45,525 bases of DNA from Gemmatimonadota bacterium (GTDB lineage Bacteria > Gemmatimonadota > Gemmatimonadetes > Gemmatimonadales > Gemmatimonadaceae): positions 1 through 45,525 of the forward strand of contig JARIEY010000005.1 of assembly GCA_031127085.1 (NCBI GenBank). Direction: 5' to 3'. Both the position numbers and the translations under genes were made by a program. Position 1 is the stretch's first letter; the number at the start of each line of letters is the position of its first letter. The notes under the pieces were generated by a model that saw only the letters and a program-made list of their open reading frames with translations, was not told the origin of the DNA and did no database searches. This document shows positions 7,807 through 41,684 of this stretch, in pieces.

Positions 7807-9885
7807 CTACCGCAACGGGATGTAGCACACGTTGCTCGTCAGCATCATCATCACGAAGACCAGGCACGTTACCATCGGCCCCAGCCAGACCCGTCCCGTC
7901 AGCTGGAAGAACCAGCGGTTGTAGAACGGCAGCAGGAACATCATCGGGATGATGCCGAACAGCAGGTTCGCAAACAGCCACTCGGCGGTCCAGTACACTG
8001 TTCCCGTGGATACGAAGCTGGCGTACTGAATGCCGAGAATGAGCACGAGCCCCACCGAGTTGCCGAGGCCGTTGATCAACAGGCTGCGCCACGCGGGCTG
8101 ATGCGCAAAGCGCCCGCCGGCGTTGACGCGCACGGAGTTGGCCAGATAGAACACGAAGAACAGCGGCAGGTACATCAACGCCACCAACAGCATGCGGCGC
8201 GGGAACGACGCCGGCGCCGAGACGAACAGGAACCGGAAGTCGGTGTGGAATATCCCGTACGCGGTGAAGAGCAGCACGAAGAACCCGCCTGCCACAAGAA
8301 GCGCAAGTAGCGCCGTGCGCCCCAGCTCGCGCGCCGAGACGCGCAACCCGAGCATCTCCGGCGTCACCCCGTTGCGCCGGCCGAAGAACCGGTACGTCGC
8401 AAAGAACAGCAGCAGCCCAATGGTGCCGTTGGCCAGCGCCCACAGCAGCACGGCGTTGTTGATGCGTTGTGGGAACCACCACGTCTGCTGCGCCGCGCTC
8501 GCCGCCGGGAAGACCTTGAAGGTGGCGAGCACCATCGGGATGAACAGGAAGCACGCGAGAAGCGCGCTGACGGCGAATGTGGTCCAGTAAATCACCGTCC
8601 CCGTGCGACCGGGCTTGGGCAATGCGGGGGGAACCGGCTTCGCAAGCGCGGCAAACGCCGGCGTCCGCAGCAGGAGCGACGCAAACGGCACCAGGAAGAG
8701 CATCCCGCCCACCAGCGCCATCAGCGTGAACAGTTCCTTCAGCCACCAGAGTTGCTGCGATGCCGCGAGCGGCGTCTTCACGCCAAATACGTCCGTGAAG
8801 AAATCGACCATATGCGCCACGGAGCGCGTGTCGTACGGGAGCAGCGGGTGGATGTTGTTGGTGTTGTGCACCACGCGCATCGTTCGCGCCGTCGGGTCGC
8901 CGTAGACGCGGTCTATCTCAACCACCGACACCGCGCTGTCCTTCGGCAGCCCGGAGTTGATCAGGCGCAGGGCCTCCGGCGCCGTGCGCATGTCGGCGTT
9001 CTTGTTCACGTTGCGGAACGCGCCCTCGTCGTGCAGCGCATAGTCCATCGCGACGTTCGACCGAATGGGGCCCAGCACCGAGTCGGTCATCGTCAGCACG
9101 TACCCGCCCACGAAGACAGCGGCCAGCTTGCTCGGCGGCTTTGGCTTGGGAGCGTCGGAGGAGTCAGCGGCCCGAACCGACGATGCCGCCTTGGCCAGCG
9201 CCGTGCCCTTCGCGGCATCCGTCGTCGACGCGCTCTTCGTTTTCTTCTTCTTTGCCTTGGGCTTCGTCGCGGCGACAGCCGGCGTGGCGGTGGCGGTCGC
9301 GGATGTTCCCGACGAATCCTTGACCGTCGCGCGACGCGCGGCGCGGGGCGCCCGCCCGCCGAACAGCGACGCCGACTGGAGCACGGCGTTGCCGCCGGCC
9401 GAGTAGCCGGCCGCGCCGATGCGCGATTTGTCCACGTAGTTGAGGTTCGGTGTGCTGAAGATGTACTCGACCATCGGGACCACGCCGTATCCCTCGAGAC
9501 TCGCCGAGCGGCGCTGGCGCGACGCGCTCGATGCGCCTTGGGCGTACGGGTCGATGGTGATGACCGCGAACCCACGGCGCGCTAGCTCAATTGCGTAGCT
9601 GTCGAGGGTCTCCTTGCTCCGCTCGAAGCCCGGGCAGACGACGACAATCGGCACCGGATTCTTGTCCGTCGCCGAGAGCGGCCGAAACAGATCGGCGGTC
9701 ACCCACTGCCCACCCTGCGTTGGGAGCGTGAAGCCGGTGACATCCACTCGTCCGAAATCTGTCTTGACGAGATACGCGCCCAGACTGCCAACAAAGATCA
9801 GCGCGAGCGAGATCCACAGCAGCCGCGACGGAACGCGGCGCGCCGTAACCGGCGGTTGATCCGCAAGTGAAGCCGGATTCGACAT
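7807..9885 (-). CDS. Alpha/beta hydrolase fused to a polytopic membrane region
   Basis: The protein has 692 residues from the ATG at 9883-9885. A longer open frame upstream reads through the heptanucleotide repeat and is Arg/Cys-rich, so it was not used. A membrane anchor (~21-40) is followed by an alpha/beta-hydrolase fold of dienelactone-hydrolase/acetyl-esterase style: VVVCPGFERS (oxyanion region), a DPYAQG turn and nucleophile elbow GYSAGG with S162. A ~60-residue Ala/Lys-rich low-complexity insertion follows the nucleophile strand. From about residue 370 onward there are many hydrophobic helices. The substrate cannot be read from the sequence. The large C-terminal membrane part is unusual for a hydrolase and could be a transporter-like or protein-binding module. 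It has no operon partner. Confidence 0.8.
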   Translation of the reverse strand: MSNPASLADQPPVTARRVPSRLLWISLALIFVGSLGAYLVKTDFGRVDVTGFTLPTQGGQWVTADLFRPLSATDKNPVPIVVVCPGFERSKETLDSYAIELARRGFAVITIDPYAQGASSASRQRRSASLEGYGVVPMVEYIFSTPNLNYVDKSRIGAAGYSAGGNAVLQSASLFGGRAPRAARRATVKDSSGTSATATATPAVAATKPKAKKKKTKSASTTDAAKGTALAKAASSVRAADSSDAPKPKPPSKLAAVFVGGYVLTMTDSVLGPIRSNVAMDYALHDEGAFRNVNKNADMRTAPEALRLINSGLPKDSAVSVVEIDRVYGDPTARTMRVVHNTNNIHPLLPYDTRSVAHMVDFFTDVFGVKTPLAASQQLWWLKELFTLMALVGGMLFLVPFASLLLRTPAFAALAKPVPPALPKPGRTGTVIYWTTFAVSALLACFLFIPMVLATFKVFPAASAAQQTWWFPQRINNAVLLWALANGTIGLLLFFATYRFFGRRNGVTPEMLGLRVSARELGRTALLALLVAGGFFVLLFTAYGIFHTDFRFLFVSAPASFPRRMLLVALMYLPLFFVFYLANSVRVNAGGRFAHQPAWRSLLINGLGNSVGLVLILGIQYASFVSTGTVYWTAEWLFANLLFGIIPMMFLLPFYNRWFFQLTGRVWLGPMVTCLVFVMMMLTSNVCYIPLR

Positions 9886-25709: not shown

Positions 25710-26576
25710 TCAACGCCTCCAGGCATAGGCGGTTGGCGCGATGGAGCGCCTAGCCACGTCGTCCAACTCGGCAATCAGGCGGCCTCCCAGCGTCACTGCG
25801 GCACTGGCGGCCGGGGAGTGGGGCGCCATGCCGGCGAAGGTTCCGCCAGCTGAAAGCCGTTCCCGCAATGGAACATCTTCAGGAATCGTGCCACCGTAAT
25901 TCAGACCCCGCCGCAGCCAGCGCTGTGAGGCCATTTGCACGTGGTCATAGAGGGCACGGGCCCGTCCCTCGTCTTGGCCGTTGGCCACGAAGTCGACGGG
26001 AAGCCCGGGAATGCGGGCGTCGACGGCCTTCAGCAGGGCGTAAGTGGCCGCCAACGCCACGGGATCAGCGGCAGATACCGCCGCCAGCCGCCGGACCCCG
26101 GCATTGCTTGCCGCCATCACCGTCTCCAGCCGGCAACCGCCATCGATCACCACAAAGTCGTAATCGGCGTACAGACCGGCCACGCGACGCCAGATCAGCC
26201 GGCGCTCGCTCGTGCTCAGCAGCGGAAGCCCAGCCGTGTCGGCACCGCCGCCACCGGGCAACAGATCCAGCATCTCCGAGGCCTGGATCACAGCCTCACG
26301 GGGCTCGATGCCACTGCCACGCAGGGCACCGATGCCGATGCGCGGCTCGACGCCAAACCAGTGGTGCTGTGTGCCGGCCTGATCGTCGCCGTCGATCAGC
26401 AGCGCACGGCGGCCCTGCTCGGCGAATGCGAGCGCCAGAAGCGCGGCCACCGTGGAGGTGCCAATGCCACCCTTGCCGGCAGCCACGAGCACCACGCGTG
26501 CGTCGCTGGGGGTCCAGCCGTCGCTCAGCCCTCGCTCCACGACAAACCGGCGCAGTCCGTCCGCTTGCGAACTCAT
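25710..26576 (-). CDS. flhG: FlhG/MinD-like flagellar number regulator
   Basis: The protein has 288 residues from the ATG at 26574-26576, which overlaps the flhF stop (ATGA). The N-terminal SQADGLRRF resembles the DQAxxLR activator motif by which FlhG stimulates FlhF GTPase. The ParA/MinD fold follows: AGKGGIGTST (signature Lys kept, P-loop Lys replaced by Thr), LLIDGDDQAG, and DFVVIDGG. The Thr replacement resembles the atypical Walker A of CpaE/TadZ-like proteins. It is placed flhF-flhG-fliA, the normal order. A paralogous domain is found in the fusion gene upstream of flhA. Confidence 0.9.
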   Translation of the reverse strand: MSSQADGLRRFVVERGLSDGWTPSDARVVLVAAGKGGIGTSTVAALLALAFAEQGRRALLIDGDDQAGTQHHWFGVEPRIGIGALRGSGIEPREAVIQASEMLDLLPGGGGADTAGLPLLSTSERRLIWRRVAGLYADYDFVVIDGGCRLETVMAASNAGVRRLAAVSAADPVALAATYALLKAVDARIPGLPVDFVANGQDEGRARALYDHVQMASQRWLRRGLNYGGTIPEDVPLRERLSAGGTFAGMAPHSPAASAAVTLGGRLIAELDDVARRSIAPTAYAWRR

Positions 26577-27391
26577 GCGGCCGCCTGCGCCGGACACGTG
26601 CCAAGCGCTCCAATGAGCGTCGGGCCCGCCTCGCGCAGGTCCGTTGGCACTTCCTGCCCGTCCGTCACCCAGCGCACCGGCATCCCCACCTCAGCGGTGA
26701 AGACGGCGACCAGCGAATCCATGGGCACTTCATCGATCTTGGTCACGATCGCGTGCGACGCGCCCAGCGCCGTGTAGTCGGCCCGCGCAGCGCCCAACAG
26801 ATCGGTGCGCATGGTGGCGGGCACCACAAAATGCGTCTCATCGGGATCGAGCCGATTCAGCATGCCGCGCCAGCCAGCGGCCTCCGACTTCGGGCCTCGC
26901 CCTGGCGTATCCACAATGATCACGTCGCACTTGGCGAGCCGGGCCAGCGCCCCCTCGAGATCGCGCGAGTCGTAGGCCAGCTCGAACTCCAACCCGGCGA
27001 CGTCGGCGTAGCTCTGCAACTGCTCCACGGCGCCCGCGCGGTAGGTGTCGAGCGAGAGAAATCCCACCTTCAAACCGCCGAACGCATCGGGATGCACCGC
27101 CAGCTTGGCGGCGGTGGTTGTCTTGCCCGCGCCGGTCGGTCCGACGAGCGCCAGAATGAACGGGCGCCCGTCGCGCCGGCGCGTGCCGGCCGAGAAACGG
27201 GGCGTCCCGGGGCTGACGCGCGTCCGGAACAGCGACAGCTGGTCCGATGTGGTGCACGCCACCTCGACGCCACTGCCCGTGCCGTAGCGGATGGTGCGCG
27301 ACCACACGAGAATGGCGTCGTCGCCCAGCTCGCCGTTGGCGAAAGCGAAGGCGGTGGCGTAGTCGGGACCGCGAAAGGTCTCAAGCCGCAT
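26573..27391 (-). CDS. flhF: Flagellar SRP-type GTPase FlhF (short form)
   Basis: The protein has 272 residues. A short basic N-terminal region is followed by the G domain: P-loop GPTGAGKTTTAAKLAV (G84-T91), LSLDTYRAGAVEQL, DTPGRGP (Pro in place of the usual Ala) and VTKIDE. Typical FlhF proteins are ~370-450 residues with B, N and G domains. Here the P-loop starts only ~80 residues in, so the N-domain helical bundle appears reduced or lost. It overlaps flhA by 11 bp and flhG by 4 bp. The role is flagellar placement with FlhG. Confidence 0.92.
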   Translation of the reverse strand: MRLETFRGPDYATAFAFANGELGDDAILVWSRTIRYGTGSGVEVACTTSDQLSLFRTRVSPGTPRFSAGTRRRDGRPFILALVGPTGAGKTTTAAKLAVHPDAFGGLKVGFLSLDTYRAGAVEQLQSYADVAGLEFELAYDSRDLEGALARLAKCDVIIVDTPGRGPKSEAAGWRGMLNRLDPDETHFVVPATMRTDLLGAARADYTALGASHAIVTKIDEVPMDSLVAVFTAEVGMPVRWVTDGQEVPTDLREAGPTLIGALGTCPAQAAA

Positions 27392-29462
27392 GTTTCATTT
27401 CCCAATGCCCAACGCTGGTCAGTTGGACGGTGGCGGGGAGTTCGGCGAGCGAGACAACGGGCAGGGCAGGCATAACGGGTTCGATGAGCCGACGGATGCC
27501 GACGCGGAGTCCCGGCGGGACCACCAGCGGCACCGAACGCCCGTCGGCGGTTCCCGCCGACGCGAGTGTGTTCAACTCACGCAAGAGCCCTGCCAGTGCG
27601 TCCGGGGTCAGCAGCGCCGTTCCGGGGGCCGAGGCGCGCGGGCTGAACAGCCCCATCAACGAGGCCTCGAGCCGCGCGCCCAGGGTGATGCCGCGCACCG
27701 TACCGGATTCATCCATGTACAGGCGCGCGATGACATTGGAGAGCGACCGGCGCACGTGCTCGGTCAGCTGCTCGGGATCCTTGGTCTGGTCGGCGGTGTC
27801 GCCCAGCGCCTCGAGAATTGTCACCAAGTCGCGAATCGGGATGCGCTCGCGGAGCAGGCGTTGCAGCACACGGTGCAGCATGCCCAGCGAGACCTTGTTG
27901 GGAATCAGGTCTTCCACCAGCGCCGGATGCGACTTCTTGAGCGTGTCCACCATCTCCTGCACGTCCTGGCGGCCCAGCAGCTCGGCAGCGTTCGACTTGA
28001 GCGTCTCCATCAGGTGGGTGGCCACCATCGTCGTCGGTTCGACCACCACGTAGCCCAGCGCTTCCGCTTCGGATTTTCGTCCGGGTGCAATCCAGCGCGC
28101 CGGCATCCCGAACGACGGGTCGATCGTCTCCATCCCGTCGATAGCCTGAATGACGCCGCCGGTATCGAGTGCCAGGAAGAAGCGCGGGAGCACCTCCGCC
28201 CGGGCCACTTCGCTGCCGCGCAGCTTGATGATGTATTCGTTGGCGGGCAACCGGACGTCGTCGCGAATGCGAATCGACGGAATGAGGATGCCCAGCTCCA
28301 GCGCCGCCTGCTTGCGGAGCAGCGAGATGCGCTCCAGCAGGTCACCGCCCTGCGACTCATCGACCAGCGGAATCAGCGCGTAGCCGACCTCGAGTTCAAT
28401 GGGATCGATCTGCAGCAGGTCCTTGAGCGGGTTCTGCGGCTGCGCCTCGGCCACCGGCGGCACCTGCGCGGCCGCGGCCACGACATCGCGCTCGTCCGAC
28501 GCCGACTGCGACATACGGGCGAGCACGGCCAGGCCGCCGGCGAGCACGAGGAACGGCACCGTGGGCAGGCCCGGTACGGCCGCCATGGTGGCGAGCACGC
28601 CGGACGCCATCCACACGGCGCGCGGGTGCGCGCCCAGCTGGCGCGCCAGCAGGTTGCCAATGCGCGAACCGCCGGCGGCGTGCGTCACCATAATGCCGGC
28701 GGCTGTGCTGACAATCAGCGCCGGCACCTGAGCCACCAGACCGTCGCCGACTGTGAGGAGCGTGTATGTGGCTGCCGCCTGCCCGGCGGGCATCCCCTTC
28801 TGCACGACGCCGATGAAAATGCCACCGGCGACGTTGATGAACGTGATGAGCAGGCCGGCGATCGCATCGCCCTTCACAAACTTCGAGGCGCCGTCCATCG
28901 CGCCGTAGAAGTCGGCCTGCTGGGTGATTTCGCTGCGGCGCTTGCGGGCCGTCGCTTCGTCAATGAGCCCCGCCGACAGATCGGCGTCGATCGCCATCTG
29001 CTTGCCGGGCATCGCGTCCAGGGTGAAGCGCGCGGCGACTTCGGCCACGCGCCCGGCGCCCTTGGTGATCACGATGAAGTTGATGCCCACCAGGATCAGG
29101 AACAGCACCACGCCCACGGCGTAGTTGCCGCCCACCACGAACTGGCCAAAGGCCTGGATGACCTCGCCGGCCTTCCCTTCCGACAGGATGAGCCGGGTGC
29201 TGCTGACGTTCAGCGCGAGCCGGAACAGCGTCAGCAACAGGATCAGCGCCGGAAACGAGCTGAACTCCAGCGGGTCGGTCGTGTACAGGGCGACGAGCAG
29301 GACCACCAGCGAAATGCCGATGCTGAGCGACAGGCACAGGTCCAGCACGAACGCGGGCAACGGCACCACCAGCAACGCGATGATAAACACGACGGCCAGG
29401 GCCACACCGATCTCGGCGGTCTTTGCGCCGCGGGTCTGGGCTGGGCTGGCGAGAGTGCTCAT
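27381..29462 (-). CDS. flhA: Flagellar type III export gate protein FlhA
   Basis: The protein has 693 residues, the normal length. The N-terminal half has eight hydrophobic helices and the FHIPEP-family signature around RVAEVAARFTLDAMPGKQMA, with further conserved stretches LVAQVPALIVSTAAGIMVT and IGNLLARQLG. The C-terminal half is the cytoplasmic FlhA-C platform that docks chaperone-substrate complexes. It overlaps the ParA/FlhB-C fusion gene upstream (ATGA) and flhF downstream by 11 bp. Confidence 0.97.
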   Translation of the reverse strand: MSTLASPAQTRGAKTAEIGVALAVVFIIALLVVPLPAFVLDLCLSLSIGISLVVLLVALYTTDPLEFSSFPALILLLTLFRLALNVSSTRLILSEGKAGEVIQAFGQFVVGGNYAVGVVLFLILVGINFIVITKGAGRVAEVAARFTLDAMPGKQMAIDADLSAGLIDEATARKRRSEITQQADFYGAMDGASKFVKGDAIAGLLITFINVAGGIFIGVVQKGMPAGQAAATYTLLTVGDGLVAQVPALIVSTAAGIMVTHAAGGSRIGNLLARQLGAHPRAVWMASGVLATMAAVPGLPTVPFLVLAGGLAVLARMSQSASDERDVVAAAAQVPPVAEAQPQNPLKDLLQIDPIELEVGYALIPLVDESQGGDLLERISLLRKQAALELGILIPSIRIRDDVRLPANEYIIKLRGSEVARAEVLPRFFLALDTGGVIQAIDGMETIDPSFGMPARWIAPGRKSEAEALGYVVVEPTTMVATHLMETLKSNAAELLGRQDVQEMVDTLKKSHPALVEDLIPNKVSLGMLHRVLQRLLRERIPIRDLVTILEALGDTADQTKDPEQLTEHVRRSLSNVIARLYMDESGTVRGITLGARLEASLMGLFSPRASAPGTALLTPDALAGLLRELNTLASAGTADGRSVPLVVPPGLRVGIRRLIEPVMPALPVVSLAELPATVQLTSVGHWEMKHAA

Positions 29463-30562
29463 GCGGTGGCGGTTCCCTTCCAGCGCATAGAGGTAAGCGC
29501 GCGCTGGCGGATGACGAAGGCGAGGACTTCAGCAACGGCGGCGTACAGATCGGCCGGAATCTCCTGACCGACCGCTGTACTGTTTAGCAAGGCCCGCGCC
29601 AGAACCGCGTTTTCGATGACCGGAACCTCGGATGTCAGGGCAGTTCGCCTGATCTGGTCAGCGATTTGCCGCTCCCCGGAGGCCACCACCACAGGGGAAG
29701 GCGCCTCGCCAGGGCGATACCGCAGCGCGACGGCAATCCGTGCCGCGCGCTCTGCCGGTTCCACCGTCTGCCAGCGCACAGGAAGACCCGAAAGGGCCCC
29801 GAGAATCCGGCCGCCGCAGCTCGCTGCGGCAGAGACTGCCGGGTTCTGTGCCCCGAGAGCGGCAAAGGTGCCGCCCTGGAGCCCCCGAACTCGCAGGGAA
29901 GGATCGTCCGGAATGGCCCCGCCGTACGCGGGCGGGCGGTGCAACCCGCGATCGGCGAGCGCCCGGATGCGAGCGTACAGGCGCTTGGCGCGCGACTCGT
30001 CCTCGCCATTGGCCACGAAATCGACCGGCAGGTCGGGCACCAACGCGTCGATTGCCTTGAGCAACCCGTACGTTGCCGCCAGCGACACCGCATCGGGCCC
30101 TGAAACCGCGACCACCCGCTGCACCCCAGCGAGACAGGCGGCAAAGACGGTGTCTACCCGAGAGCCGCCATCGATAATCGTGACGTCGTACGCGTCGTAG
30201 AGCGAGGCAATCCGTCGCCACAGCGCACGCACGCGGGCCGCCGAAGGGGCCGGCCCATCTGGCGCGCCGCCACCGGGAAGCAACGACAGCGCTTCCGACA
30301 CGGGAAGAACGAGCGTCGCGGGCTCGGCGGCCGTCGAGAGCAGCGTGCCCACGCCACCCGACGGCTCCACGCCAAACCAGCGGTGCATCCCGCCGTCCCG
30401 GTCGTCACCGTCGACCAGTAGTGTGCGGCGTCCCTGTTCGGCGAACGTGAGCGCCAGCAGCGCCGCGGTCGTCGAGGCCCCCGCGCCATCTTTGCCTGCC
30501 GCGACCAGAACCACGCGGCCGTCGCCCGCGCCGCCATCGCCCGCGCGGCCGAGGGCGGTCAC
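29459..30562 (-). CDS. Fusion of a FlhG-like ParA ATPase domain and a FlhB C-terminal-like domain
   Basis: The protein has 367 residues from a GTG overlapping the flhB stop (GTGA). Residues ~14-255 are a paralog of the neighbouring FlhG, with shared runs such as LALTFAEQGRRTLLVDGDD, HRWFGVEP, SLAATYGLLKAIDAL and DLPVDFVANGEDESRAK. Walker A reads AGKDGAGAST, more degenerate than in FlhG, and the N-terminal activator motif is missing. Residues ~275-367 align without gaps to the last ~93 residues of FlhB, about two thirds identical by eye. They include PVIENAVLARALL and IPADLYAAVAEVLAF. The NPTH self-cleavage motif is not present. Stand-alone FlhB-C homologs (FhlB/YlqH, FlhX) are known; the fusion with a ParA domain was not one I recognise. 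It is encoded between flhB and flhA. Confidence 0.93.
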   Translation of the reverse strand: MTALGRAGDGGAGDGRVVLVAAGKDGAGASTTAALLALTFAEQGRRTLLVDGDDRDGGMHRWFGVEPSGGVGTLLSTAAEPATLVLPVSEALSLLPGGGAPDGPAPSAARVRALWRRIASLYDAYDVTIIDGGSRVDTVFAACLAGVQRVVAVSGPDAVSLAATYGLLKAIDALVPDLPVDFVANGEDESRAKRLYARIRALADRGLHRPPAYGGAIPDDPSLRVRGLQGGTFAALGAQNPAVSAAASCGGRILGALSGLPVRWQTVEPAERAARIAVALRYRPGEAPSPVVVASGERQIADQIRRTALTSEVPVIENAVLARALLNSTAVGQEIPADLYAAVAEVLAFVIRQRALTSMRWKGTATA

Positions 30563-31653
30563 GCCAGGGCGCTCCCCTTCCAGCGCATCGAGGCGAGCGC
30601 GCGCTGCCGGATCACAAACGCGAGCACTTCGGCGACGGCGGCGTACAGCTCGGCAGGAATCATCTGCCCCACGTGCGCGCTGGCGAGCAGCGCGCGGGCG
30701 AGCGGCTTGTTCTCAATCACCGGCACCTTGTGCTCGAAGGCCAGCGCCTTGATACGCTCCGCGATCTTTCGCTGGCCCATGGCCAGCACAATCGGCGCCG
30801 GCGCCTGCACCGGGTCGTAGCGCAGGGCAATGGCGATATGGGTCGGGTTCACGATCACGACGTCAGCCTTCTTGACATCCTCGAACATCTGGCGGCGGAT
30901 GCGGGCGCGGGCCATCGAACGCGCGCGATGCCGCTGCATCGGATCGCCCTCGTTCTGCTTGGTCTCCTGCCGCACGTCCTCCTTGCTCATCTTCAGGCTC
31001 TTCTCGAACTGCCAGAGCTGGTACGTGTAGTCCAGCGCCGCCAGCGCGAGATACGCCAGGCCGGCGTTCTTCAGCATCCGCACCGAGAGCTGCTGAATGA
31101 CGGGGAACATCGCCATCAGGTCGCGATTGCCAAGGTCGGCCAGGTCGGCCCACCCCTGCGTCAGCACCCCCGACACCGCCCACGTGACGATCCCCATCTT
31201 GGCGAGCGACTTCACCAGATCTGCCAGCGGCTGCGTGGAAAACAGGCGCTTGGCGTTGGTCAACGGACTGATGCGCTCCCACTTGGGCGCGAGCGGCTGC
31301 ATCGAGAGCAGGCCGCGCCCCTGTACGCCGGCGATCGCCAGCACGGTCACACCGAATCCCGCGCACAGCAGCCCCACGATCTTGAGCGTGGCCATGCTCG
31401 TGGTGCGCAGCAGCAGAATCGCCTTTTCGGGATCGCGCGCGCCGTCGCCCACCTGCGACAACGTCGTTCCGAAAAGCGCCACCAACTGCGTGCCCACCCC
31501 GGGGCCCACCGAATCGGTGACGATCGCGGCCGTCAGGAAGAGCGCCGCGGCGTTGAGCTCGGGCGAGCGAGGGATCTTGCCTTCAAGAAACGCGTCTTCC
31601 CGTCGTTTCGGGGTTGGCGCTTCAGTTTTTTCCTGGTCGCTGCCTTCGGCCAT
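30559..31653 (-). CDS. flhB: Flagellar export gate/substrate-switch protein FlhB
   Basis: The protein has 364 residues. The N-terminus EKTEAPTPKRREDAFLEGK is typical. Four hydrophobic helices (~35-215) are followed by a charged linker (MSKEDVRQETKQNEGDP) and the autocleaving NPTH motif at N269-H272 (VIVNPTHIAIALRYDP). The C-terminal FlhB-C domain follows. After self-cleavage, FlhB and FliK switch export from rod/hook to filament subunits. The gene lies 2 bp after fliR and overlaps the fusion gene by 4 bp. Confidence 0.97.
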   Translation of the reverse strand: MAEGSDQEKTEAPTPKRREDAFLEGKIPRSPELNAAALFLTAAIVTDSVGPGVGTQLVALFGTTLSQVGDGARDPEKAILLLRTTSMATLKIVGLLCAGFGVTVLAIAGVQGRGLLSMQPLAPKWERISPLTNAKRLFSTQPLADLVKSLAKMGIVTWAVSGVLTQGWADLADLGNRDLMAMFPVIQQLSVRMLKNAGLAYLALAALDYTYQLWQFEKSLKMSKEDVRQETKQNEGDPMQRHRARSMARARIRRQMFEDVKKADVVIVNPTHIAIALRYDPVQAPAPIVLAMGQRKIAERIKALAFEHKVPVIENKPLARALLASAHVGQMIPAELYAAVAEVLAFVIRQRALASMRWKGSALA

Positions 31654-38455: not shown

Positions 38456-40791
38456 GGCTGGGTATCCTCGCGCTCCCGACGGGAGCGCTGGCGATGGGAA
38501 TCCTGCTCTTGCGGTGTCTGTCCGGCGCGCGGGTCGCGCGCGTCGTCGCGATCACGCCGGAACGGAGTCGAGGCGTCTGGTGCCAACGCGGCAGCGACCC
38601 CACGTGCGGTCAGCGCGTCTGCGGCAGCGCCGGCGCGCGGCACTTCGGTGCCAAGGGTCGATGCCACGGTACGCACGGTCACGCCGTCAGACTCGAGCCC
38701 GCGTGCCTCGAGGGCGCGGGCCAGTTCCGACGCGCGCGCCGTCAGTTGCGACGCGTTCTGCGCATCGCGCACATCGATCGTCGAGGCGACGCCGGCGCCG
38801 CGCACATCCACGCGCACGCGGTCAGTGCCGCCATTGCCGTCGTCGAGCGTCAATACCATTGATGACACGGGCTGCGCCGCGGCCTGCTCCTGCAGCGCGT
38901 CAATCTGCGCAACCCGCGCCAGCTGATCGGGACCGCTCACCGCGTTCACCGGCGCCGCGTTGTTCATCATCGGGCGCGCGGCGCCCGCAAACGGCAGCGC
39001 GCCGGTTTCCGTCGAAGCCGGACCCACGTCACTCGGCCGGCGTGCATCGCGCGACCCTTGCTCCGTCGACCGCTCGCGGCTTCCTGAACGAGCCGACGCG
39101 TCGGCGGCGCTCACGGCCACGGCGGGCATCTGCGCATTCGTCGCGTTCGCGCGCGACGGCTGAGCAGGAGCTGGCGCATCCGTCGAACGTTGGGCGTTCC
39201 GTGATTCCGCTGCGGCCTGCCCTGTGGCAATCGGCTGCGTCACTCGGCTCTGTGCCGAGACGCGTTCTGTCGGCGACGCGGCGATGGTGCTGCCAGCCAT
39301 CGGTGCCGGAACGGCTTCATTCGCTGGTGTACCCGTCGTCACGCTGCGAGGTTCAGTCGCCGGTGCGCTGTTGACGGCCACCGTCGCGGCCGGCGTGGAA
39401 TGCCCCGTCGTCGATACGCCAGGCACGGCTGCCGACGCGGCCTTCGCCGTGTTGCTCGCCAGCGTGTTCACCGATGGTGTGCTGGTATTCGGCGCGCTCG
39501 TAGCGGGCGCGCTGGGTGTTGCGGCGTTGCGTGAAGCGGTCGACGCGGCGTGACCGACTGCCGCCGCGACTTGACGCGCGCCCTGTGAGACGCCGGGCAT
39601 CGCGATGCGCGCCACCGTCGCCACCCGCGCGACGCCGGCGGCTACGGCCACTTCGGCTACGCGCGCGACGCGCGTAATGCGCTCCATCGCGGCCTCACCG
39701 GCCCGCGCGGCACCCTGTGATGCGCCCTGTGTCGGCGTGGTGGACGCTGGCCGTAGCGATGGCTGCTGTGCGATGACCGACGACACCTTGGCGGTGAAGC
39801 CACCGGCCTGCGGCGTGCGCAGTTCAAGGTGGCCGGCGTCGCGCGCGCCGAGCGTGTGCAGCCCTTCCTCGTTGGCGATGCGTTGCAGACGCTCGAATGC
39901 CGCCGGATTGTCGTAGCCACCGTCGATCATCACGTCTGCGGCGAGTCCATCGGAATGCCGTGAGTTGCGCGTCCACGTCACCACCTGACCGGGCGCCGAG
40001 CGGCCGAGCTCGAACAACGCGTCCTGCCGCTCCTGACTGCGCACGGTCTCGACCACGGTCACCTTATGGCCGAACTCGTTCTGCATCCGCTCAATCACGC
40101 GGTCGAGCTTCGCACGGAAGGCGGGATCCAGCGCCGCCGTCTCGCGGACAATGGCCGACGGATCGATGGCGGCCGTGGCGAGAGGATTCGCCTGCGCGGG
40201 CACCGCGTGTCCGTCCGCCTCACCCGTCGTCTGTGCCGTGGCTTGCTCGTCGTCGCGCGCTTTATCGACCGATGCACTCTTCCCCTGAGAGGGCGCGGCC
40301 ACCGTGGCGGGCGTCGTCGGTGGCGCAACCATCGCGGCCGCACCGAGCGCCTGCATGGTCGCATCCACCATCGTCCCGGCCGTCTGCGAGGCGCCGCCGG
40401 CGGCCTCGAGCGCCGACGCCGGCGCGTGGAGCGCGGCACTACCCTGACGGGTCACCTGCTCAATCAGCGCCTTGATGGCCGTGTTGCCAGTATCATTCGC
40501 GGCCATCGTATCAAGCGAAGGCGCGCCTTCGGTGATCGCGGCCTCCAGCGACTCGAGCGCCGCCTTGATCATCGACGCCCCTTCGCGCGGCGCGCCGCCC
40601 TCGGTGGTGGCCTGCAGCGAAACGAGACGAGCCAAGACGCCGGCAAACGGCTGAAGGGCCGGATCCACCGCGGTGGCCGACGTGCCGGCCGCCAGTCCCT
40701 GCGGCGCGGTCGCTGCCGTGGTGCCGAGAAGTTCGAGGGCGGCAGAGGCAGGCGCGGATCCTACGCCTCCCACCGCAAAGGGAAGGGTCAC
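38452..40791 (-). CDS. fliK: FliK hook-length control protein with embedded M15 peptidase domain
   Basis: The protein has 779 residues with a GTG start overlapping the previous stop; about twice the usual FliK length. Residues 1-220 and 335-620 are Ala/Thr/Ser/Pro-rich and low in complexity, like a FliK ruler. Residues ~640-715 match the FliK C-terminal (Flg_hook) domain: VLTLDDGNGGTDRVRVDVRG, then ELARALEARGLESDGVTV. Residues ~222-328 are a folded M15-type peptidase: SRHSDGLAADV with zinc ligands H279 and D286 seven residues apart. RDAGHLEL supplies catalytic D318 and zinc ligand H321, the DxxH spacing of L-Ala-D-Glu/D-Ala peptidases such as Ply500 and CwlK. The site looks intact. Position between motE and flgD supports FliK. 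The peptidase insertion is the unusual part. Confidence 0.88.
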   Translation of the reverse strand: MTLPFAVGGVGSAPASAALELLGTTAATAPQGLAAGTSATAVDPALQPFAGVLARLVSLQATTEGGAPREGASMIKAALESLEAAITEGAPSLDTMAANDTGNTAIKALIEQVTRQGSAALHAPASALEAAGGASQTAGTMVDATMQALGAAAMVAPPTTPATVAAPSQGKSASVDKARDDEQATAQTTGEADGHAVPAQANPLATAAIDPSAIVRETAALDPAFRAKLDRVIERMQNEFGHKVTVVETVRSQERQDALFELGRSAPGQVVTWTRNSRHSDGLAADVMIDGGYDNPAAFERLQRIANEEGLHTLGARDAGHLELRTPQAGGFTAKVSSVIAQQPSLRPASTTPTQGASQGAARAGEAAMERITRVARVAEVAVAAGVARVATVARIAMPGVSQGARQVAAAVGHAASTASRNAATPSAPATSAPNTSTPSVNTLASNTAKAASAAVPGVSTTGHSTPAATVAVNSAPATEPRSVTTGTPANEAVPAPMAGSTIAASPTERVSAQSRVTQPIATGQAAAESRNAQRSTDAPAPAQPSRANATNAQMPAVAVSAADASARSGSRERSTEQGSRDARRPSDVGPASTETGALPFAGAARPMMNNAAPVNAVSGPDQLARVAQIDALQEQAAAQPVSSMVLTLDDGNGGTDRVRVDVRGAGVASTIDVRDAQNASQLTARASELARALEARGLESDGVTVRTVASTLGTEVPRAGAAADALTARGVAAALAPDASTPFRRDRDDARDPRAGQTPQEQDSHRQRSRREREDTQP

Positions 40792-41684
40792 GGGGCGTCC
40801 TTGGCCTTAATCGCGGCCTTCGAAATCGCCGCCGCGCGCTCCGCGGGGAAGGCGGAAAGAATTTCGCCCGCCTTCTTGTCGGTGAGCTTGGCGAGGATGT
40901 GCGAGACGTCATTGTCGTCCATCTGCGTCAACACCTTCGCGGCGTCCTTCGACGCCATGTTGCCGAAGATTTTGGCGAGCCGAGAGTCACGCAGTGCGGT
41001 CGACGCGCTTCCCGGCGCCGCCGAGGCAGGCGTGGCCGCCGGTGAAGCACCCGGCGTTGCCGCCGCTGGCGATGCGCCGCCCGACGGCACCTGGCCGGAT
41101 GGCGCCGCCGTGGAGAGCGGCTCGGTGTATGGCGCGGCAGTGCGCGCCGGTGCCGTGTAGGGCGGTGTGTACGGTGCGGCCGTCCGCGGCGGTTCGGTGT
41201 TGCGCTCCACGCTCCCGCGCGACACGACGTTCGAGGCGACAACGGTTGGATTGTCCATGACCCGCGGCGTCGACGACGGACGCGCCGACGGCGCGCCCCG
41301 CGTTACGCTGGGCGCGCCCGAGGAAGGCGCGGCGTGTGCAGGCGCTCCGCCGTCATGCGGCGGACTCCCCGCGGCTGGTTTCGGTGCTGGTTTTGTGGCC
41401 GGCGCTTTGGCTGCCGGTCCCTTCGCCGGCTCCGCAGCGGCGGCGTGCGCGTCAGCTGTGGGAGCGGCCTCTTCGGCCGGCGCGGCTTCGGCGCTCGCTT
41501 CCGCGCTGGCGGTTGAGTCCGCCGCTGGCGCTGCCGCAGAATCCGGCTTCGCGTGCGTCGAGTCCGTGGCCGCTGGGGCCGGAGCGGCCGCCGCGTGCTT
41601 CTTGGCCTGCATGACCGCGAGTCCCGTCGCCCCGCCCAGCGCGAGCAGGAAGGCAACGAGGAAAGGAAGGGCGAGGCGAATCAT
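40788..41684 (-). CDS. MotE/YlxF-like flagellar protein (MgtE_N-type C-terminus)
   Basis: The protein has 298 residues. An N-terminal membrane helix (~4-25) is followed by a ~185-residue Ala/Pro-rich linker with APYT-type repeats (RTAAPYTPPYTAPARTAAPY). A C-terminal ~65-residue helical domain similar to the MgtE N-terminal/FliG-like repeat follows (LAKIFGNMASKDAAKVLTQM, AGEILSAFPAERAA). The topology places linker and domain in the periplasm. Its place between fliJ and fliK is exactly that of ylxF in Bacillus; the related MotE of Campylobacter is a periplasmic motor chaperone. The long linker could span the peptidoglycan. Confidence 0.8.
   Translation of the reverse strand: MIRLALPFLVAFLLALGGATGLAVMQAKKHAAAAPAPAATDSTHAKPDSAAAPAADSTASAEASAEAAPAEEAAPTADAHAAAAEPAKGPAAKAPATKPAPKPAAGSPPHDGGAPAHAAPSSGAPSVTRGAPSARPSSTPRVMDNPTVVASNVVSRGSVERNTEPPRTAAPYTPPYTAPARTAAPYTEPLSTAAPSGQVPSGGASPAAATPGASPAATPASAAPGSASTALRDSRLAKIFGNMASKDAAKVLTQMDDNDVSHILAKLTDKKAGEILSAFPAERAAAISKAAIKAKDAP

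Follow-up and report, generated by a model that had tools for sequence, protein, structure and literature searches.

A single-frame fusion of a FlhG-like domain with an FlhB tail lacking its cleavage site, encoded between flhB and flhA in a Gemmatimonadota genome: a possible auxiliary component of the flagellar export gate

The flagellar gene cluster described here lies on contig JARIEY010000005.1 of the Gemmatimonadota assembly GCA_031127085.1, of which positions 1 to 45,525 form the stretch referred to as the window; the source (labelled G000) is a metagenome-assembled genome (MAG), 81.67% complete, whose 241 contigs total 3.15 Mb. The genes follow the order fliP-fliQ-fliR-flhB-fusion-flhA-flhF-flhG-fliA, in which the gene called fusion is a single uninterrupted 367-codon frame in the open-reading-frame list (Table 1). 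Four bases are shared at either end, GTGA between the flhB stop and the fusion start and ATGA between the fusion stop and the flhA start ATG. The first-pass annotation of this DNA had proposed that one frame between flhB and flhA joins a FlhG paralog to an FlhB C-terminal homologue, and the frame, the Pfam and NCBIfam matches and the alignments confirm it; a sequencing frameshift, which that annotation had named among the possible refutations of its proposal, was not seen, as there is one open frame with exact overlaps at its ends and constraint on both halves. The true flhG is encoded 3 kb downstream of the fusion, whose FlhG half is its paralog. Elsewhere the window holds an ordinary flagellar set, FlgE, FlgD, FliJ, FliI, FliH, FliG, MotA/B and FlgF, G, A, H, I and K among others, with a FliK-like protein recognized through a weak match (3.5e-4).

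Residues 274-367 of the fusion are an FlhB tail with 64-67% identity to the neighbouring FlhB. They align with FlhB chain B (3b0z/3b1s) from the first residues past the cleavage site, and the full-length FlhB profile is matched at positions 260-335 of 335 only, with no N-terminal membrane domain. At the position of the autocleavage motif, RAAR replaces NPTH, in which N, P, T and H are each present in 12/12 FlhB relatives, and the preceding VVIV strand is also absent. Judged by sequence, the C-terminal half is thus an FlhB_CC fragment lacking the cleavage site, and the earlier description of it as a pre-cleaved FlhB-C, corresponding to the post-cleavage fragment, is apt. Of 53 columns in which 90% or more of the 12 FlhB relatives agree, the fusion keeps 40; the 13 lost columns cluster at D-V-N-P-T-H of the cleavage region and also include D33, A39, P70 and A79 (segment numbering; the fusion residue is +250). 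In Salmonella FlhBCCD, the substrate pocket is formed by A286, P287, A341 and L344, as reported in PMC9307174, and the aligned residues in the fusion are Ser, Pro, Ala and Leu, so that three of the four are kept. A structure model of the C-terminal domain, of middling confidence, aligns with FlhB chain B (VIA-align of Foldseek candidates), indicating that the C-terminus would fold like FlhB-C, as the proposal of the first-pass annotation required.

Residues 16-261 are a FlhG paralog with 53-54% identity to the FlhG of this clade, and their best sequence relatives in the structural database are 4rz2 and 5j1j. Compared with 27 hand-chosen FlhG rows (the window flhG and 26 more, with L032, L033, L039, L006 and G172 (L052) omitted), the fusion keeps 25 of 28 conserved columns, among them D51 of Walker A' and D131 of Walker B, and has lost three through G25D in the P-loop, R111V and A166G. 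The degenerate Walker A noted in the first-pass annotation is therefore only partly peculiar to this protein: glycine 25 is present in 27/27 relatives and replaced by Asp in the fusion only, whereas the second P-loop lysine is missing in all 27 (T or A; KGGxG[TA][ST]), which makes that part of the degeneracy a trait of the clade. Binding or use of ATP may accordingly be unusual in the FlhG proteins of the family.

The contacts by which FlhG is known to act are largely missing from the fusion. An N-terminal enhancer helix with DQAxxLR stimulates FlhF, according to PMC12826062; the own FlhG carries an SSQADGLR version, and the aligned fusion has no such helix. F215 of Geobacillus FlhG (GtFlhG) contacts FliY (PMC12327844), and its probable counterpart in the fusion, residue 206, is Gly, with Phe in 23/27 and Trp in 4/27 FlhG relatives. 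The counterpart of GtFlhG R207 is kept; this numbering takes the PDB chain to carry a tag of 8 residues, which puts both R207 and F215 on the right residues. The FlhG C-terminal tail (VARRSIAPTAYAWRR in the own FlhG) is supplanted by the FlhB domain, and the membrane-targeting sequence of FlhG is placed in its C-terminus by PMC12826062. The FlhG half thus appears to have lost the known FlhF link, and probably the FliN/FliY and membrane links as well. With a P-loop carrying G25D and with the enhancer helix, the probable FliY aromatic and the C-terminal tail gone, gating of the FlhB part by nucleotide or by FlhF/FlhG, as once suggested, is not supported. The broader suggestion that the fusion ties the machinery for flagellar number to the export gate survives in part, since a direct bridge is possible in one polypeptide although the known FlhG contact points are gone.

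Table 1. Features of the fusion gene and its neighbours in the window (45,525 nucleotides)
Feature	Position in window	Strand	Basis
Fusion gene (367 aa), FlhG-like domain joined to FlhB_CC-like domain	29459..30562	minus	open frame, Pfam/NCBIfam, codon tests
Stretch similar to the flhA start, at the first 18 nt of the fusion	30545..30562	minus	base comparison; suggestive only
FlhG/ParA-like domain, residues 16-261	29780..30517	minus	sequence comparison
P-loop AGKDGAGAST, residues 22-31	30470..30499	minus	column conservation
Linker, residues 262-273, in place of the C-terminal tail of FlhG and of the strand that precedes NPTH in FlhB	29744..29779	minus	alignments
RAAR, residues 272-275, at the NPTH position; no autocleavage site	29738..29749	minus	alignment
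FlhB_CC-like domain, residues 274-367	29462..29743	minus	Pfam, structure alignment, model
flhB, complete, with NPTH	30559..31653	minus	open frame, Pfam
flhA, the only FlhA in the genome	27381..29462	minus	open frame, genome search
flhF	26573..27391	minus	NCBIfam
flhG proper, with N-terminal SSQADGLR helix	25710..26576	minus	open frame, alignment

Both halves of the gene are under purifying selection, and neutrality is clearly rejected for each. In a branch codon model run with our own script on hand-picked taxa (4 FlhG, 5 FlhB), omega on the fusion branch was 0.101 for the FlhG half against a background of 0.053, with omega=1 rejected (twice the log-likelihood difference, 2dlnL, 58.7), and 0.063 (2dlnL 67.5) when the fusion was set beside G000 instead. 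The FlhB half gave 0.106 against a background of 0.037 (omega=1 rejected, 2dlnL 30.8), and 0.027 (2dlnL 31.2) after removal of 12 codons per end, covering linker and tail; all these magnitudes are rough because synonymous sites are near saturation. Pairwise estimates for the FlhG half (NG86) gave a nonsynonymous divergence (dN) of 0.42-0.43 and a synonymous divergence (dS) of 1.2-1.28, compared with 0.06-0.10 and 0.83 among the true FlhGs. A pseudogene is ruled out by the open frame together with the rejection of omega=1 in both domains. The branch test by itself is also compatible with a chimera of two constrained genes; this reading is opposed by the loss of specific residues that relatives keep fixed and by two halves that lie at unequal distances from their relatives.

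The fusion was found in no other genome in overlapping surveys of increasing breadth, covering 41 relatives, the family (179 genomes, of which 84 matched at 1e-15) and the class (394 genomes, of which 46 matched at 1e-28). With PF01312, 82 of 178 family genomes had FlhB and G000 alone had two matches, and in the phylum, where 104 of 395 genomes had FlhB, G000 is the only one with a true tail-only FlhB gene. The idea of a clade-wide Gemmatimonadota gene was accordingly dropped, and the absence of the fusion from all close relatives, which the first-pass annotation had listed as counting against its own proposal, is what the survey found. Two kinds of candidate were set aside: a tail-only FlhB in G169, which is a normal, NPTH-bearing FlhB truncated where its contig ends at base 9286, and FlhG matches reaching query residue 290-295 (L006, L033 and L039 checked), in which no FlhB-like sequence follows the FlhG part. 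One class-level relative, G381, carries two full-length FlhB genes of near-equal score on contigs C107 and C197. Coverage outside Gemmatimonadota comprised scans of named genomes, one viral scan and 14 control genomes, so such a fusion could occur in other groups. Among the matches listed, the scan of genome contigs with the fusion alone gave no relative (59 stretches), and a four-sequence profile gave only the FlhG of G003 and G004; the viral contig scan returned 12 stretches and no relative of the fusion. In all 11 loci that hold both genes, flhA directly follows flhB with no space for another gene, and in G003, G004, G007 and G006 the two overlap by four bases, a coupling that the GTGA and ATGA of the fusion mirror.

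The fusion resembles several known proteins in part. It shares with FlhB_CC (PF01312; 3b0z/3b1s chain B) the sequence of the whole fragment, the modelled fold and three of the four pocket residues, but it has no membrane domain, FlhB_CN strand or NPTH, is carried on a FlhG-like domain and is encoded separately beside an intact flhB. YlqH/FhlB is a free-standing FlhB-C homologue. FlhX of Campylobacterota, a free-standing FlhB-C homologue named in PMC9321776, and the TIGR00789 family (flhB_rel) likewise place a second FlhB_CC-type domain alongside a full FlhB, and the TIGR00789 model covers the CC part only (84 positions, matching fusion residues 275-353). The fusion differs from these in its FlhG-like domain, in an independent origin, probably from the neighbouring flhB, and in its TIGR00789 score, which at 55.9 bits lies below the cut-off of 117.35 and close to the 60.1 of FlhB itself. 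By sequence its other half belongs to the FlhG/FleN/YlxH fold family (4rz2 and 5j1j best) but departs from it in the missing enhancer helix and C-terminal tail, the KDG of the P-loop and the Gly at the probable FliY contact. Another FlhB fusion of the flagellar export gate, FliR-FlhB (NF009411, PRK12772), joins the whole FlhB to FliR, in contrast to the FlhB_CC-only part and FlhG-like domain here. No description of a FlhG-FlhB fusion was found in the literature searched, which was open-access with subscription papers mostly outside its scope, and free FlhB-C paralogs appeared there only in passing mentions of FlhX.

In Salmonella, as reported in PMC13344023, FlhBCCD keeps the gate in its early mode and is required for early export, and its ejection by FliK turns export from hook to filament, the late mode. 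Given this background, we suggest, with a probability of roughly 45%, that the fusion acts at the export gate as an auxiliary, pre-cleaved, FlhX-like FlhB_CC carried by an FlhG-fold scaffold that has been put to new use. As its C-domain begins past the cleavage site, it would be soluble and already in the cleaved form. The protein would be translated together with flhB and flhA and could dock at the export gate, either by way of the conserved substrate pocket or by strand pairing with FlhB_CN; lacking strand beta1, a soluble FlhB_CC could attach to the strand that remains in FlhB_CN, take up early substrates in the kept pocket or bind FliK. In this way it might hold or restore early (rod/hook) export, or compete with the native FlhB_CC ejected by FliK. 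The FlhG half would most likely serve as a dimerising or docking scaffold and not as a working FlhG, as it is constrained yet without its known partner links.

Several observations weigh against an auxiliary FlhB_CC at the gate. The gene is known from one incomplete and fragmented MAG, and the flagellated congeners G003, G004, G005, G006 and G007 do without it. D33, P70 and other positions fixed in 12/12 FlhB relatives are altered, pocket residue A286 has become Ser, and the third-codon-position GC content (GC3) of the C-domain is 0.72 versus 0.876 in flhB. The alignment behind the structure model itself holds FlhB sequences, the fusion branch has about two to three times the background omega, an imprecise estimate, and the FlhB-half tree (12 listed: 11 FlhB, the fusion and G000) does not fix the attachment point of the fusion.

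A more specific version of the auxiliary FlhB_CC, in which the fusion docks on the FlhB_CN strand after ejection of the native FlhB_CC and returns the gate to, or holds it in, the early mode as a resettable plug, seems improbable on present evidence. If true, a one-way export switch would become resettable or delayable, possibly per flagellum via a dimeric scaffold. A natural soluble and uncleavable FlhB_CC encoded between flhB and flhA, maintained by selection jointly with a member of the flagellar-number family, would offer a test of action in trans and of resupply after ejection, and it points to a possible new way to influence the timing of the flagellar export switch.

Of the competing explanations of function or artefact, a heterodimer that modulates FlhG ranks first, followed by a passive leader of flhA and then by an artefact. 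For the first, which comes nearest to the proposal of the first-pass annotation, the fusion would form mixed dimers with the true FlhG or compete for its partners, with the FlhB tail locating it at the gate, and would thereby damp flagellar number. The retention of 25 of 28 FlhG columns including D51 and D131, the purifying selection, and the nucleotide-independent binding of Bacillus FlhG to the C-ring protein FliY (reported in PMC12327844) would suit such a regulator; the missing FlhF-stimulating helix, the Gly at a probable FliY contact that is F/W in 27/27 relatives, the Asp in the P-loop and the replaced C-terminal tail do not, so that we regard it as unlikely even though it is the strongest contender.

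A by-product of tandem duplication, retained mainly for translational coupling of flhA while the protein itself does little, is less likely again. The RWKG C-terminal codons of FlhB (window 30574-30581) and of the fusion end read GGAAGGGG/GGAAGGGA directly upstream of the next start, so that this tail may be conserved as a ribosome-binding site. These GGAAGG-like codons upstream of the flhA start, the retained ATGA overlap and the occurrence in one genome only would all be explained by such a leader, but coupling alone would not constrain both domains, in each of which omega=1 is rejected, also after trimming of the tail.

The gene could have originated by a tandem duplication running from inside flhB to inside flhG, by which the front of flhG would have been joined to the tail of flhB and the copied flhB tail would still abut flhA; the extra flhA-flhF copy would then have been lost, leaving flhB, fusion, flhA, flhF and flhG. 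Such a duplication within the flhB-flhA-flhF-flhG operon would provide a route for joining gate and placement proteins in one polypeptide. Compared with the flhA start of G004, the fusion start matches at 11 of the 14 bases after NTGA, which 0 of 1511 control NTGA sites reach, and it matches at 9/14 with the own flhA and likewise with the upstream flhG GTG, a value reached at 22 of the 1511 sites; the flhA-like start is a hint, in line with duplication. In the FlhG tree (13 rows, 12 FlhG and the fusion), the fusion branches outside ((G004,G000),G003) with support 98.1/99, and the four are grouped against 9 others with support 99.7/100; codon likelihood favours the outside placement by 6.3 units. 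The duplication therefore seems older than the split from the congeners G003 and G004, and later loss elsewhere, or transfer, seems to have followed it. If the two FlhB-tail repeats recombined, the fusion would be cut out cleanly and an intact flhB-flhA junction regained, and patchy loss could have come about in this way.

The same outside branching would be expected if recombination at flhB-flhA had brought in the fusion horizontally from a sister lineage not yet sampled, which concerns its origin and not its function, and the genes on either side are typical of the clade (flhG, flhA and fliA 83-94% to G003/G004). We consider such a gain very unlikely; loss in the congeners through recombination between the FlhB-tail repeats would be easy as well, and either history would produce the observed pattern. 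An assembly or binning artefact joining gene pieces of two organisms, which would fit the fragmented MAG, the lack of a second genome with the gene and, as parent genes would be constrained too, the branch test, is the most remote explanation: the join is in frame with exact four-base overlaps to both neighbours, the parents would be odd (an FlhB part without NPTH, D33 and P70, a FlhG part without G25 and the helix, features that relatives share generally or without exception), FlhA is single copy with no second flhB-flhA junction found in the genome, and the FlhG half is nearer to this clade (54%) than is any other FlhG compared (34-49% to the own FlhG) while the FlhB half (64%) is farther from the own FlhB than are most other genera (64-79%), a near and a far half not being expected from one foreign source.

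Two further proteins of the cluster deserve mention. The own FlhF (window 26573-27391) is short, with 272 aa, a TIGR03499 match and only about 75 residues preceding the GTPase domain. Between the FliK-like gene and fliJ, a 298-aa protein (window 40788-41684) matches MgtE_N (8.3e-8) and, weakly, FliG_M, in a slot that in flagellar clusters is often occupied by a MotE-like protein.

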